NCBI GenBank assembly: GCA_013001295.1
Contig: JABDMW010000040.1
Coordinates: 1 to 64,000, forward strand
Direction: 5' to 3'
DNA length: 64,000 nt
Source: Hyphomonadaceae bacterium
GTDB lineage: Bacteria > Pseudomonadota > Alphaproteobacteria > Caulobacterales > Maricaulaceae
The notes beneath the pieces were generated by a model, which saw nothing but the letters and a program-made list of their open reading frames with translations, was not told the origin of the DNA and made no database searches. The number at the start of each line of letters is the position of its first letter. The first letter of the stretch is position 1. The position numbers and the translations under genes are program-made. Below, piece by piece: positions 14,100 through 27,156 of this stretch.

Positions 14100-14273
14100 G
14101 ACACTCTCCTTAATGGCTCAGGTAGTTTCCCAGTCTAGCAAGATTTCGCGCAAAAATCTATGATGAGTAAAATGTCGCTCAGTTAGAGCCGACGACCTCG
14201 CCGCCAATAATCGTCACGGTTCACGCCGCGCTGGTTTGAACCGGGTGAATTATTTCTGCCCTTTCCCAATCAC

Positions 14274-14394
14274 GTCATTGCCGGGCCGGTTGGCACGGCG
14301 CCCCGGCCGGCAATCCAACTCTGAGATTTTTCGTCTCCCGACAAGAGAACAATTAGCACAGGGTTGGATTACCCCGACAAGCGGGGTAATGACG
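14274..14394. repeat. family A palindromic element (A2)
   Basis: The left arm CGTCATTGCCGGGCC...GGCCGGCAATCCAACTC and the right arm CAGGGTTGGATTACCCCG...CGGGGTAATGACG are complete. It lies 25 bases before the GIY-YIG-bearing element A3, in the same orientation. Confidence 0.9.
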
Positions 14395-14419
14395 GGCGAG
14401 GATTTGAAGTTAAATTTAT

Positions 14420-14789
14420 CGTCATTGTCGGGCTTGTCCCGGCAATCCAACTCTGGTGTAATCAACTGGTGAAAAAGGGATATGTCTATCTGCTGGCCTC
14501 GCGGAAATACGGTACGCTTTATGTAGGTGTTACCAGCGATTTGCAGCGTAGACTTCACGAACATGAAAACGGACTTACGCCCGGATTTTCCTCAAGACAC
14601 AAGGTATCGATACTGGTCTGGTACGAGGAATATGATCTGATAACTGACGCCATTGCCCGTGAAAAACAAATCAAAAAATACAAGCGGCAATGGAAAATCA
14701 ATTTGATTGAAGCGGGCAATCCGGACTGGAAACCACTTTTGCCTTACTGACCTCAGGGTTGGATTACCCCGACAAGCGGGGTAATGACG
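14420..14789. mobile_element. family A element (A3) carrying a GIY-YIG gene between its arms
   Basis: The left arm (CGTCATTGTCGGGCTTG through CCGGCAATCCAACTCTGG, 14420-14457) and right arm (CAGGGTTGGATTACCCCG through GGGGTAATGACG, ending 14789) are ordinary family A arms, but the usual spacer of about 50 bases is replaced by a complete small nuclease gene. A decayed copy with the same layout sits at 25227-25492. The nesting suggests one mobile unit. Confidence 0.8.
14469..14750 (+). CDS. small GIY-YIG endonuclease inside repeat A3
   Basis: From GTG 14469 the product has 93 residues; the frame is also open upstream through the left repeat arm to ATG 14364, so the start is uncertain. It has the GIY-YIG core: GYVYLLASRKYGTLYVGV (two tyrosine motifs), the arginine-bearing SDLQRRLHEHENG, and the metal-binding glutamate in IAREKQIKKYKRQWK. 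These single-domain proteins (YhbQ/UPF0213-like) cut DNA, with few known roles. The gene is bounded on both sides by family A repeat arms, which points to a part in repeat spread. The end is NPDWKPLLPY. Confidence 0.85.
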   Translation: MKKGYVYLLASRKYGTLYVGVTSDLQRRLHEHENGLTPGFSSRHKVSILVWYEEYDLITDAIAREKQIKKYKRQWKINLIEAGNPDWKPLLPY

Positions 14790-23405: not shown

Positions 23406-25058
23406 TCAAACAACGTCCCACATGGTCACGCGTCTTGGCATCGGCCAGAAGGCCATCATCACCGCGTCGGCGAGGTTGGGGGAGCGGGTGCCGGCGGGGG
23501 CTTTGTCGACTTTGAGGCGCAGGCGGGCGCTGTGGGTGGCGACCGGTTGGCTGAGTTCCTTGATCAATGTGTTGAGGTGGGCGAGGTCAGCGGGCAATGA
23601 GATGAGCTGGTCGGCGGGATAAATAATGCCTTCATGCACGGCGCGATAGGTGCGCTGAAAGCGCAGGCGCAATAGCCACCAGCCCTGGGCTTTGAGGTTT
23701 TCATAAAAATCGCCGTTCAGCGGTGAGTTTGGATCGTCCGACCCGTCGGCGTTTTCCACCACATGCCGGTCGGGCCACAACACCCCGGCGCCCGCATCCC
23801 AAGACACGAAGCGCACAGTTTTCTGCACCAGCCCTTCTTCAGCCAGCCGATTGACTTCGGCTTTGACACCCGCGCCCACCCCGATGCAATCATAATTGAT
23901 CTCGATTCCCGGCTTGCCCCGGGCCAAGGCGAGAGACCGCCGCGTCGTCTCGCCGGTATCGCGCGCCGCCCAACAATCCAACGCCCGCAGCACCGGCCCT
24001 TGCCGGGCCGCGAAGGCGTTTTTGTCCATGCCGCCAAAAGCAAAAGAGTCGGCAACGTCCAATGCCCCGACCCACGCCCCGCCTTCCGCAAATCCCAACA
24101 GTTTGTGCGCGTCGACAGCGGCGCGCACCCAGTCGGGCGGGATGATCACGCCCTCGACCGAAGCCGCGTAATTGCGCTCCACTTCCTGGGCGAATATATG
24201 CGCCAGACCGTCGGCGGTCGCCTTACGTTTGCGCGCCTTATACCATGCGTTGGTCTTGCCGGGATGATCACGCCAATCGAGCACAAACACATTGGTGACG
24301 CCCGTGTAGGCTTCTCCGGATTGCCACTCCCGTCCCGCCTCCCGGCGGCGGTGAAACACATTGCCGATGCCGTTGACGCTCGACATATCGATCTGCACAT
24401 TCGTCGTGTCGGCGAGCGCCGCCTCAATGCTTTCGGCCTGCTCATAATGGGCGCTCTCATCCTTGAAATAGATCAGCTTGCGGCCGCCGCGCCCGATATT
24501 GTGGCCCGCCTCGCCGGTTATACTGGCCCCGTTTTCCGGGTTGAGGATTTTCATACGGGCACAGTGCAGGCGCGGGGTGAAGCCGGTGGGTAAAAACTCG
24601 CGCGGGATATCGGCGAGCAGCATGCGCATTTTCTCAAACAGGCTATCCGGATCGCCGGCCCGGTCGACCAGCTGCTCCTTGCGTGATCCCCAGCCGATGC
24701 TGGCCCCGTCCCAGAACAGGAACAGCCAGACCGAGAAAGCGCAGGCGAGCCAGCTCGCCCCCATATCGCGGGATTTCTCGATCAACCCGTTTTCCTTCGC
24801 TCGCAGGCAGGCGAGCAGGAACTGCACCATCTGCTTTTGGCGGGCGAACAAGAGGAACGGCATGGTCGCGGGGTGGTCACTGCCCGCCAATCGCGGATCA
24901 TAGGTGTTCATCCAGTGCTCGATAAAGTCCACTGGGTGGGTGCGGTAATAAGCCTTGGCACTGGCGAGCAATGCGGGGTCGGCACGAAGCGCGCGCAGCT
25001 TCGCCTGCCGCCATTGATAAACCGGCACCGGATCCGGCGGGAAAGTGTGTGGGGTCAT
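23406..25058 (-). CDS. phage terminase large subunit
   Basis: The 550-residue product is a full-length packaging motor. The Walker A-like loop is EKSRDMGASW (94-103), Walker B is LIYFKDES (195-202), and GAGHN-type residues at 184-187 precede it. The C-terminal nuclease has GALDVADS (331-338, Asp334), INYDCIGVGAG (387-397, Asp390) and a last acidic residue in NLADAVMMAF, as expected for an RNase H-like fold that cuts DNA to length. Nothing is missing. Family A and B repeats lie within 20 bases of both ends of the gene. The small subunit gene lies upstream at 25880, after an insertion of repeats and a membrane protein gene. Confidence 0.93.
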   Translation of the reverse strand: MTPHTFPPDPVPVYQWRQAKLRALRADPALLASAKAYYRTHPVDFIEHWMNTYDPRLAGSDHPATMPFLLFARQKQMVQFLLACLRAKENGLIEKSRDMGASWLACAFSVWLFLFWDGASIGWGSRKEQLVDRAGDPDSLFEKMRMLLADIPREFLPTGFTPRLHCARMKILNPENGASITGEAGHNIGRGGRKLIYFKDESAHYEQAESIEAALADTTNVQIDMSSVNGIGNVFHRRREAGREWQSGEAYTGVTNVFVLDWRDHPGKTNAWYKARKRKATADGLAHIFAQEVERNYAASVEGVIIPPDWVRAAVDAHKLLGFAEGGAWVGALDVADSFAFGGMDKNAFAARQGPVLRALDCWAARDTGETTRRSLALARGKPGIEINYDCIGVGAGVKAEVNRLAEEGLVQKTVRFVSWDAGAGVLWPDRHVVENADGSDDPNSPLNGDFYENLKAQGWWLLRLRFQRTYRAVHEGIIYPADQLISLPADLAHLNTLIKELSQPVATHSARLRLKVDKAPAGTRSPNLADAVMMAFWPMPRRVTMWDVV

Positions 25059-25077
25059 ATGTAAACTTAAATTTTTC

Positions 25078-25199
25078 CGTCATTGCCGGGCTTGTCGGTC
25101 CGGCCATCCGGTGGGCAATCCAACTCTGGTGATTTCCGTCGCCCGACTGGATAAGGGTCAGCACAGGGTTGGATTACCCCGACAAGCGGGGTAATGACG
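25078..25199. repeat. family A palindromic element (A9) just upstream of terminase
   Basis: Both arms are complete; the left hairpin is enlarged (CGGGCTTGTCGGTCCGGCCA). It begins 20 bases upstream of the large terminase start and 28 bases from element A10, so it lies where the terminase promoter or operon link would be. Confidence 0.9.
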
Positions 25200-25226
25200 T
25201 GTGAGGTTTTGTGATTATATTTTATC

Positions 25227-25492
25227 GTCATTGCCCACCAGAGCGTTTCAAGAGAAACGCGTGCGTGTGGGCAATCCAACTCTGGTGTAATCAGCTTGTG
25301 AATTAGGGATATGTCTACCTGCTGGCCTCGCGAAAATATGGTACGCTTTATGTGGGTGTAAAGAGTGATTTGCCGCGCCGACTTCACGAACATGAAAATG
25401 GACTCACACCCGGATTTGAATCCACTTCTGCCCGACTGATCTCAGGGCTGGATTACCCCCGGAGCGCCGGACCGATAAAGCCGGTAATGACG
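25227..25492. mobile_element. family A element (A10) carrying a decayed GIY-YIG gene
   Basis: The left arm CGTCATTGCCCACC...GTGGGCAATCCAACTCTG has the mini-palindrome GCGTTTC-AAGA-GAAACGC (25244-25261) in its hairpin loop. The right arm is diverged (CAGGGCTGGATTACCCCC through CCGGTAATGACG). Between them lies a broken GIY-YIG gene closely similar to the one in A3. Confidence 0.8.
25298..25438 (+). pseudogene. GIY-YIG nuclease remnant
   Basis: The translation reads GYVYLLASRKYGTLYVGVKS and PRRLHEHENGLTPGF, nearly the same as the gene at 14469. A TAG stop stands at the third codon, and about 145 bases are missing between GGATTT and the codons for the last residues, so the glutamate-bearing helix is lost. 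It cannot be an active nuclease. Confidence 0.85.
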
Positions 25493-25540
25493 GGTTGTTT
25501 TTATCTACCCTCCCCGATCTCTTGCTGATAAAGAAACGGC

Positions 25541-25870
25541 ATGAGCTTCTTCTTCCTATTTTTCATCATCGCCTACTGTATCCCCTTGGTTTTACGGGGC
25601 TGGAAAAGCTTGACGGTTTGGGCGCTGCTGATTCTGGTGCTCGCCGTCTACATGTTGACAAAGGGTTCAGGCCCACAGGTCGAAGGGGCCGCCATTTTAG
25701 CGTTTCTGGGTTGGATGATCGTGGCGGGTGGCGTTTTCGGTACGCTGATCCGTGCCCTCATCCTGTATTTCAGGCCCCGCAGGGATGTGCCTCGGATGGT
25801 TTATGTTTTGGCCGCTTTGTTGTTTTGTTCGCCATTCGTCTGGTTTGTGCATCTGTTAGGACAAGCGTAA
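25541..25870 (+). CDS. small membrane protein between the terminase genes
   Basis: The 109-residue product has four hydrophobic stretches, about 2-18, 24-41, 48-74 and 86-106, with basic residues FRPRRDVPR before the last. The family is not recognised. It lies on the opposite strand between terminase large and small genes and ends nine bases from the small subunit's 3' end. It may be phage-borne cargo or an inserted chromosomal gene. Confidence 0.6.
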   Translation: MSFFFLFFIIAYCIPLVLRGWKSLTVWALLILVLAVYMLTKGSGPQVEGAAILAFLGWMIVAGGVFGTLIRALILYFRPRRDVPRMVYVLAALLFCSPFVWFVHLLGQA

Positions 25871-25879
25871 GCGCGGGCG

Positions 25880-26401
25880 CTAGCTCTCCAACTCTCTCGC
25901 ATACAGATCCGCCGCGGTCGCTGCGGTCATGTCGGCCGTAATGGTGGGGAGGTCTTCGGGGGCGAAGAGCAGCGGTTGTTCCGGCTCGCGGGTCATCAGG
26001 CCGAGCTCGCGCGCGACCAGGGCCGGGTTAAACAGGCCGACACAGGCGCCGGTAAATTTATGCTCGAAAATCACGGAGTCGACCGTGGCGACCACGTCGG
26101 CGAACGGCTCCTCGCGTTGGCGCCAGCTTTGCCAGGTTTGGTGCGCGATCCCCAGATACACACACAGGCCCGCCTGGGTCATCGGGCGCGGGCGCGGTAT
26201 ATGGATCACGGTGGCCTCGCCGGCATATTTCATCACATCGACGGTGGGCACCGGATGCGCCTCGACCCATTCAAAATACGAGATGCAGTCGAGCCACGGC
26301 TCATTGGGGTCTTCATAATACGGGTACGGCCCGAGCTTAGGGCGATGCGCCCACAGTTTCTCATCTGTCGGCACACACAAGGGTGTCAGGGTTATGGTCA
26401 T
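25880..26401 (-). CDS. terminase small subunit, gp3-like
   Basis: The 173-residue product matches the DNA-packaging protein gp3 type of small terminase: PWLDCISYFEWVEAHPVPTV, the helix-turn-helix-like TQAGLCVYLGIAHQTWQSW, then VIFEHKFTGACVGLFNPALV and ARELGL. The small subunit binds the packaging start site and loads the large subunit. AAGAGAA precedes ATG 26401. It reads toward the large subunit gene, as in phages, though 820 bases of repeats and a membrane gene stand between. Confidence 0.85.
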   Translation of the reverse strand: MTITLTPLCVPTDEKLWAHRPKLGPYPYYEDPNEPWLDCISYFEWVEAHPVPTVDVMKYAGEATVIHIPRPRPMTQAGLCVYLGIAHQTWQSWRQREEPFADVVATVDSVIFEHKFTGACVGLFNPALVARELGLMTREPEQPLLFAPEDLPTITADMTAATAADLYARELES

Positions 26402-26488
26402 GGGGTTCTCTTGGTTAATTCCGGATGTGTATTCACGGGTTCTCGGACTTTTCTCTTCCGCTCATCCCCGTCATGCGTTTTTTCTCTT

Positions 26489-26963
26489 CCGCTCATCCCC
26501 CTGGAGAGGGGGATCCATAGAGATCTAACCGCGCCCTTGTCCGAGAAGAACTAATGATATATGTTCGTGTTATGTTCTTTACTTACATGGTGACAAATCA
26601 ATATCTGGGCACGCTGTATACAGGCCACACAGATGATCTTTCTCGTCGCATTGATGAACACAGAAACGGTGCCCTTCCGGGGTTTTCAAAGAAGTATGGA
26701 TGCACGCATTTGGTCTGGTTTGAACTTCACGAAACGCGTGCATCGGCCTTTCGACGCGAGCGTCAAATTAAAAGATGGAACCGCGCCTGGAAAATTCGGT
26801 TGATCAAAAAACTCAATCCGAAATGGGATGATTTATATCCCAAGCTTTCCGAAGCTTTCGTCTATGACGAGCAAAGAATTTTCAATCCGGCGCGTCTTTA
26901 ACCCGCCAGCCGCGCTGTTCCGATATTTTTATGGATCCCCACCTGCGTGGGGATGAGCGGGAG
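26489..26963. mobile_element. family B element carrying a GIY-YIG gene between its arms
   Basis: The left arm CGCTCATCCCCCTGGAG...GGGGGATCCATAGAG (26490-26523) and the right arm TTTTATGGATCCCCACC...GTGGGGATGAGCGGGA (26929-26963) are family B ends in inverted order. The shared B core is replaced by a complete GIY-YIG gene. This repeats, with an unrelated repeat family, the layout of element A3. Confidence 0.8.
26554..26901 (+). CDS. small GIY-YIG endonuclease inside a family B element
   Basis: The 115-residue product has the GIY-YIG core FFTYMVTNQYLGTLYTGH, the arginine helix DDLSRRIDEHRNGALPGF, and the glutamate in AFRRERQIKRWNRAWKIRL. It differs a good deal from the enzyme at 14469, as its host repeat differs from family A. 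A C-terminal tail (YPKLSEAFVYDEQRIFNPAR) follows the domain. GAGAAG stands before ATG 26554; ATG 26572 is an alternative. It probably cuts DNA; a role in copying family B repeats is inference. Confidence 0.85.
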   Translation: MIYVRVMFFTYMVTNQYLGTLYTGHTDDLSRRIDEHRNGALPGFSKKYGCTHLVWFELHETRASAFRRERQIKRWNRAWKIRLIKKLNPKWDDLYPKLSEAFVYDEQRIFNPARL

Positions 26964-27156
26964 GTTAGGTACGACGGTTTTTCTACGGGGATGAGCGGGA
27001 TGTGGGGTTGGTGTTTCTGCGCATATGAGCGGGATGTGGGGTTGATGCTTCTGCGCAGATGAGCGGAAGGAGCGGAAGTTTACCTTCCCTTTCCCCTCGC
27101 GCGAAACTTGAAATTGTGCTATGGTGGTCGGAATCATAATTTGTGGGGGCGCCACA

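Follow-up and report, generated by a model that had tools for sequence, protein, structure and literature searches.

A small GIY-YIG nuclease gene between inverted GCTC-tagged hairpins in a Hyphomonadaceae genome: a candidate REP-nuclease-REP element

The first 64,000 nucleotides of contig JABDMW010000040.1 of a Hyphomonadaceae bacterium (assembly GCA_013001295.1), hereafter the window, carry at 26,489-26,963 a gene for a small GIY-YIG endonuclease, P0001, which lies alone between two inverted hairpins of a repetitive extragenic palindromic (REP) repeat, family B. This feature is probably a REP-nuclease-REP element, in which the GIY-YIG gene sits between inverted hairpins of its own repeat and the encoded enzyme would act on them. 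At the level of sequence, the basis of this reading is documented by the layout, a clade-by-clade match between enzyme and repeat, a covarying stem in a second repeat family of the same genome (family A), the duplication of a whole composite, a deleted copy, REP doublet-forming hairpins (REPINs) and presence/absence among relatives. The small GIY-YIG nuclease is likely the partner enzyme of REPs with CGTC-type tags.

A sequence-only reading of this DNA had described family B arms enclosing a complete GIY-YIG gene, and this was borne out. The gene is a complete open reading frame (ORF) between two 39-nt arms (26486-26524 and 26925-26963), which are 79% complementary and 400 nt apart. Each arm contains a complete family B hairpin, the left one (26491-26517, forward strand) reading GCTC-ATCCCCCT-GGAG-AGGGGGAT-CCA and the right one (26932-26958, reverse strand) GCTC-ATCCCCAC-GCAG-GTGGGGAT-CCA, with both tags pointing outward and both CCA tails inward.

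CGTC-tagged REPs have been defined by a tag, an 8-9 bp stem beginning with A-T, a 4-5 nt loop, a CCA tail and their occurrence as dimers (Di Nocera, De Gregorio and Rocco 2013; PMC3733652). They are widespread in Alphaproteobacteria and present in other phyla, include the Neisseria dRS3 repeats as CGTC-1 REPs, and were reported in 2013 to have no dedicated transposase. Family A agrees with this definition in tag, stem, loop and tail: its hairpin is CGTC-ATTACCCCG-CTTGT-CGGGGTAAT-CCA, with nine stem pairs. The stem, loop and tail of family B are as in CGTC-1, and its tag is GCTC at both arms; this tag and the GIY-YIG gene inside the pair distinguish the element from the CGTC REPs described there. 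Since both families have the tag-stem-loop-stem-CCA layout, they can be regarded as variants of one superfamily, and judged by its sequence family B is a GCTC-tag variant of the CGTC REP superfamily. The earlier proposal that two unrelated palindrome families each carry their own enzyme therefore stands as far as the enzymes are concerned, the B enzyme being well diverged from that of family A (A3; 45% identity) as had been stated, and fails on "unrelated", given the common layout.

Strict searches of the 3.49-Mb genome gave 33 matches for family A and 11 for family B, the latter with a pattern that fixes the GCTC tag and whose reversed control gave none. Fifteen of the 33 strict family A REPs fall within the window (400-38700), mostly at 14-39 kb, which makes this region a hot spot. 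Among 20 distinct family A hairpins, drawn from the 33 matches with identical rows and two of other length excluded, 98.3% of the stem cells were paired, and covariation was 0.488 compared with 0.145 after shuffling (0/500). Because the search pattern fixed the outer stem letters, the covariation is informative only for three inner pairs and for the R/Y pair.

The domain of P0001 is GIY-YIG (PF01541, 4.6e-15, 56.1 bits against a cut-off of 22.6), and its catalytic residues are intact, Tyr11, Tyr22, Arg32, Glu69 and Asn88 being invariant in 45 sequences. By these features P0001 is assigned to the GIY-YIG nuclease superfamily. GIY-YIG was the sole domain found in domain searches of the protein, which returned no HUH tyrosine transposase. 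The AlphaFold2 model, which is confident (pLDDT 91.5), matched best the fold of UPF0213 (1zg2) and then Slx1, and UPF0213 proteins were also the closest solved structures by sequence (1zg2 at 1.3e-8). The likeness to UPF0213 (1zg2, 1ywl) and Slx1 is at the superfamily level, and to our knowledge neither has cognate palindromes.

Nesting of the gene between inverted repeats was examined in loci of relatives gathered by protein similarity alone. For each gene, the two 250-nt flanks were compared for their best inverted repeat, with a score of at least 13 as threshold. This family-free score provides the main count, since many repeats with other tags escape a strict tag detector of narrower design; comparison between families relied on a revised strict detector. 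The threshold was reached in 147 of 200 genome loci, made up of the genome's own loci (3/3), the best of the order (21/29), the class (17/28), named GTDB genomes (59/80) and further loci of the order (47/60). The last are most of the upper part of the listed matches, taken down the list, with several near contig ends passed over. Viral-contig loci reached it in 37 of 43 cases. No ParE toxin gene among 28 from the same order did so, and flanks that were reversed and not complemented gave 0/3, 1/29, 0/28, 3/80 and 0/60 for the same sets and 2/43 for the viral loci (6/243 in total). The named matches come from Alpha-, Beta- and Gammaproteobacteria, plus one metagenome-assembled genome each from Deltaproteobacteria and Marinimicrobia. 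Most copies thus lie within repeats and not outside them. The earlier argument that chance insertion is unlikely also gains support, all three genes of the genome being framed at a score of at least 13 and no ParE gene. The flank tests cover loci with at least 100 nt on each side (omitting L059, L148, L156, L172, L181 and L193, and L368 and L384 of a second family described below). Also omitted were the short ParE loci L207 and L218, and repeats of the genome's own loci and uvrC (L001, L004, L005, L036). L069 is the same record as L009 and was left out of the matching, tree and strict-detector comparisons.

The hint in the sequence-only reading that enzymes and repeats are matched was supported both by a cross-genus comparison and by the protein tree against repeat family that it had called for. 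Across genera, the proportion of pairs with both flanks alike was 0% under 40% identity and then 1.6%, 3.1% and 8.5%, reaching 29.5% at 70-80% identity and 17.4% (4/23) above 80%; 23 pairs with homology further out were excluded from this test. For the 145 cross-genus pairs with at least 70% identity, 27.6% share the repeat on both sides, compared with a permuted mean of 3.7% and maximum of 13.8%. Repeat similarity tracks protein similarity across genera (Mantel r 0.24, with 0 of 5000 permutations as high). Within genomes the repeat is shared by 5 of 9 pairs with at least 70% identity and by 0 of 24 pairs with at most 55% (12 genomes). When tag type was mapped onto a protein tree with 147 rows, 25 changes sufficed, compared with an average of 43.9 for shuffled labels, and 0 of 200 shuffles were as low. 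Resolution of this tree is poor (14 of its 144 inner branches are starred), and host kinship contributes to the link. Furthermore, a GIY-YIG match was found in 31 of 35 genomes with at least three B-type REPs versus 73 of 115 others (Fisher p 0.006, kinship not corrected).

Twenty distant GIY-YIG loci (L341-L360), chosen as an expected negative control, proved to carry their own palindrome and are therefore reported as a result. In 12 of 19 (L360 omitted for its short flank) the gene is flanked by inverted repeats quite unlike those described above, and many of these loci share the palindrome CATCCTGAG-loop-TCGAAGGATG. In a dedicated search of this second family (L361-L389), which overlaps the twenty, 22 of 27 loci exceeded the inverted-repeat threshold and none did so in the reversed control. 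The strict detector found CGTC REPs on both sides in 70 of 199 loci of the first family, in 0 of 27 of the second, in 0 of 28 ParE loci and in 0 of 597 shuffled flanks. Conversely, the TGAG-TCGAA palindrome lies on both sides in 14 of 27 loci of the second family, 0 of 199 of the first and 0 of 28 ParE loci. As this detector was written after the second palindrome had been seen, its absence from the first family is the informative half. The second small GIY-YIG family, framed by TGAG-TCGAA palindromes, occurs in the same class as the host of P0001.

The genome encodes three small GIY-YIG genes, namely the B gene at 26554, A3 at 14481 and a third at C26 (L003), plus a remnant at 25307, and all four sit between inverted hairpins; an additional long GIY-YIG frame was taken for uvrC. 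The composite around A3 (14273-14789) and that of the remnant (25077-25491), from which most of the GIY-YIG gene is gone, can be aligned from outer tag to outer tag, and similarity is lost outside. The ends common to full and internally deleted copies are those of a miniature inverted-repeat transposable element (MITE)-like arrangement, and in layout the A composites correspond to a full element and a derivative that has lost internal sequence. In the window, family A also forms nine REPINs that have a 43-nt linker and no gene; two of these make up the left parts of the A composites.

Signs of mobility were sought at orthologous sites. The interval of locus L268 (genome G011), which lies between two convergent genes, holds the gene between REPs in G011 and, in the opposite orientation, in G130; it is empty in G016, G140 and G391, and in G090 it holds a repeat of the family of L268 with other sequence. 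In G095 and G399 the interval holds a lone REP of the same family. At two orthologous sites (L268/L321 and L019/L288) the G130 element is inverted relative to G011 or G095, as if it had inverted between its repeats or been inserted anew. At L019 the gene lies between two complete 88-nt REPINs, and the same REPINs are dispersed alone in many genomes of the genus. No clean empty site was found at the L019 locus, where G391 is without the gene and has other REPs, or on Rhizobium plasmids, where there was no synteny. GIY-YIG homologues occur on plasmids and viral contigs; among isolated phages there were two weak Staphylococcus phage matches only.

The strongest rival to a REP-nuclease-REP element is a homing parasite, for which REPINs would spread by other means while the nuclease gene homes into hairpins that it cuts and is copied by repair from a filled copy. 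GIY-YIG is a classic homing-endonuclease fold (PMC1564403), the repeats are far more numerous than the genes, and the lone REP in G095 and G399, opposed to the gene between REPs in G011 and G130, fits homing. However, the family A composite was duplicated whole with its ends at the outer tags, which exceeds homing into an existing repeat, and gene and repeat subtype travel together across genera. We regard homing as unlikely.

A second rival, which we rate as more doubtful again, is a service to the host, whereby the enzyme would trim incoming or exposed single-stranded DNA at dispersed REPs and the pair would be kept without mobility. A homologue of P0001 in Neisseria gonorrhoeae (48.8% identity over 86 aa) is framed on both sides by CGTC REPs. 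Ssn, a GIY-YIG family whose members Chenal et al. (Nat Commun 2025) reportedly described as nucleases that cut single strands at specific sequences and have cognate repeats, in Neisseria among others, is said to cut single-stranded DNA at NTS repeats and to modulate transformation in Neisseria. Ssn, as reportedly described, resembles the present system in its GIY-YIG superfamily, its small stand-alone protein and a cognate repeat in many genomic copies, as also seen here for families A and B. The differences are that the present system comes from other bacteria, with other repeat subtypes and with signs of an element that ends at its tags and has left a deleted derivative, and that its cleavage is a prediction. 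A mobile element accounts better than a host service for the presence/absence and inversion at orthologous sites, the deleted copy and the occurrence on plasmids and viral contigs. Because the gonococcal homologue has adjacent CGTC REPs and dRS3 repeats are CGTC-1 REPs, the pairing of enzyme and repeat is itself probably already in print as the Ssn family. Among the matches listed in searches of open-licence papers, none joins GIY-YIG with REPs or names a dedicated CGTC-REP enzyme or a mobility link. Hitch-hiking or chance, in which REPs gather between genes and happen to enclose small accessory ones, is very improbable: intergenic REP hot spots do exist, such as the G391 locus, but ParE toxin genes of the same order lack such flanks, and the repeat type depends on the enzyme clade.

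For the REP-nuclease-REP element, we propose that the nuclease would recognise its own REP once this has folded as a single strand or formed a cruciform, and would cut near the tag, which would start copying of the unit; REPINs would be its non-autonomous partners. The tandem copies of the tag ends that flank the B element (Table 1) would fit repeated cutting and re-copying, and other explanations for them exist. A close parallel is provided by the RAYT (TnpA-REP) transposases and REPtrons (PMC3733652; see also PMC2817692 and PMC8266576), which share a REP-flanked enzyme gene, gene-free dispersed REPs and enzyme-specific repeat types. They combine an HUH tyrosine transposase with GTAG REPs, whereas here a GIY-YIG nuclease is combined with CGTC-type REPs, and the flanks are of CGTC/GCTC type instead of GTAG. 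On this reading, GIY-YIG enzymes would play for CGTC-type REPs the part proposed for RAYT with GTAG REPs. The GIY-YIG nuclease is unrelated to RAYT and should form no covalent intermediate, and joining would consequently need host repair or replication. The wider proposal, that stand-alone GIY-YIG nucleases are the missing dedicated enzymes of CGTC REPs and of at least one further superfamily (TGAG-TCGAA), giving a non-HUH dispersal of REPs in which every clade targets the hairpin that belongs to it and spreads both REP-nuclease-REP units and REPINs, seems to us evenly balanced between true and false.

Several observations weigh against the REP-nuclease-REP reading. Because GIY-YIG enzymes hydrolyse DNA, their activity by itself does not account for integration. 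The single empty site that was inspected, in the L268 interval, showed no target-site duplication; many transposable elements make none. The deleted copy and the shared ends are seen for family A and not for the B element itself. A derivation of the REPINs from the nuclease element by simple deletion is not supported, as the 43-nt linkers of family A REPINs form a separate family of their own. In some clades (e.g. L019) the nearest REP tags face inward, with the gene between two REPINs, and there is consequently no single fixed architecture. Four genomes with 5-10 B-type REPs are without a match to P0001, 53 of the 200 genome loci are below the flank threshold, and as to generality, two candidate-phylum loci (L113, L130) and one from Anaerolineae (L122) scored low with 400-nt flanks.

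A cognate nuclease inside CGTC repeats makes their spread testable, with matched enzyme-hairpin pairs available in many genomes. If the proposal is true, a hydrolytic nuclease joins the means by which short repeats multiply. Another possible use of the matched pairs is as cutters specific for single strands, as is reported for Ssn.

Table 1. Positions of the family B element, its flanking tandem repeats and the family A composites in the window
Feature	Position	Strand	Remarks
Left family B REP	26489..26519	+	tag GCTC, 8-bp stem, GGAG loop, CCA tail
Small GIY-YIG endonuclease gene P0001, 115 aa	26554..26901	+	ORF, profile match, AlphaFold2 model
Right family B REP	26930..26961	-	inverted, tag outward
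21-nt direct repeat of tag end	26449..26500	+	two copies, 26449-26469 and 26480-26500; second overlaps left REP
Three 34-nt tandem units repeating tag end	26976..27077	+	GGGGATGAGCGG in first unit; outside right REP
Family A REPIN	14273..14394	+	left part of A3 composite
Family A REP - A3 GIY-YIG gene - REP	14421..14789	+	gene 14481-14750 in matched frame
Second A composite copy (REPIN + REP-GIY-REP)	25077..25491	+	GIY-YIG gene internally deleted

No Rfam family matched in window positions 12000-40000. The G391 intergenic site (L289 1265-1500) has two different REP types side by side and no GIY-YIG gene. Right next to the B element, at window 23406-26401, are a gp3-like gene for DNA packaging (PF16677) and a 550-aa ORF; the latter had no Pfam match and was taken for a large terminase. 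The third element of the genome (C26, L003 1836-2807) adjoins a 323-aa ORF that resembles a phage portal protein, judged by eye only.
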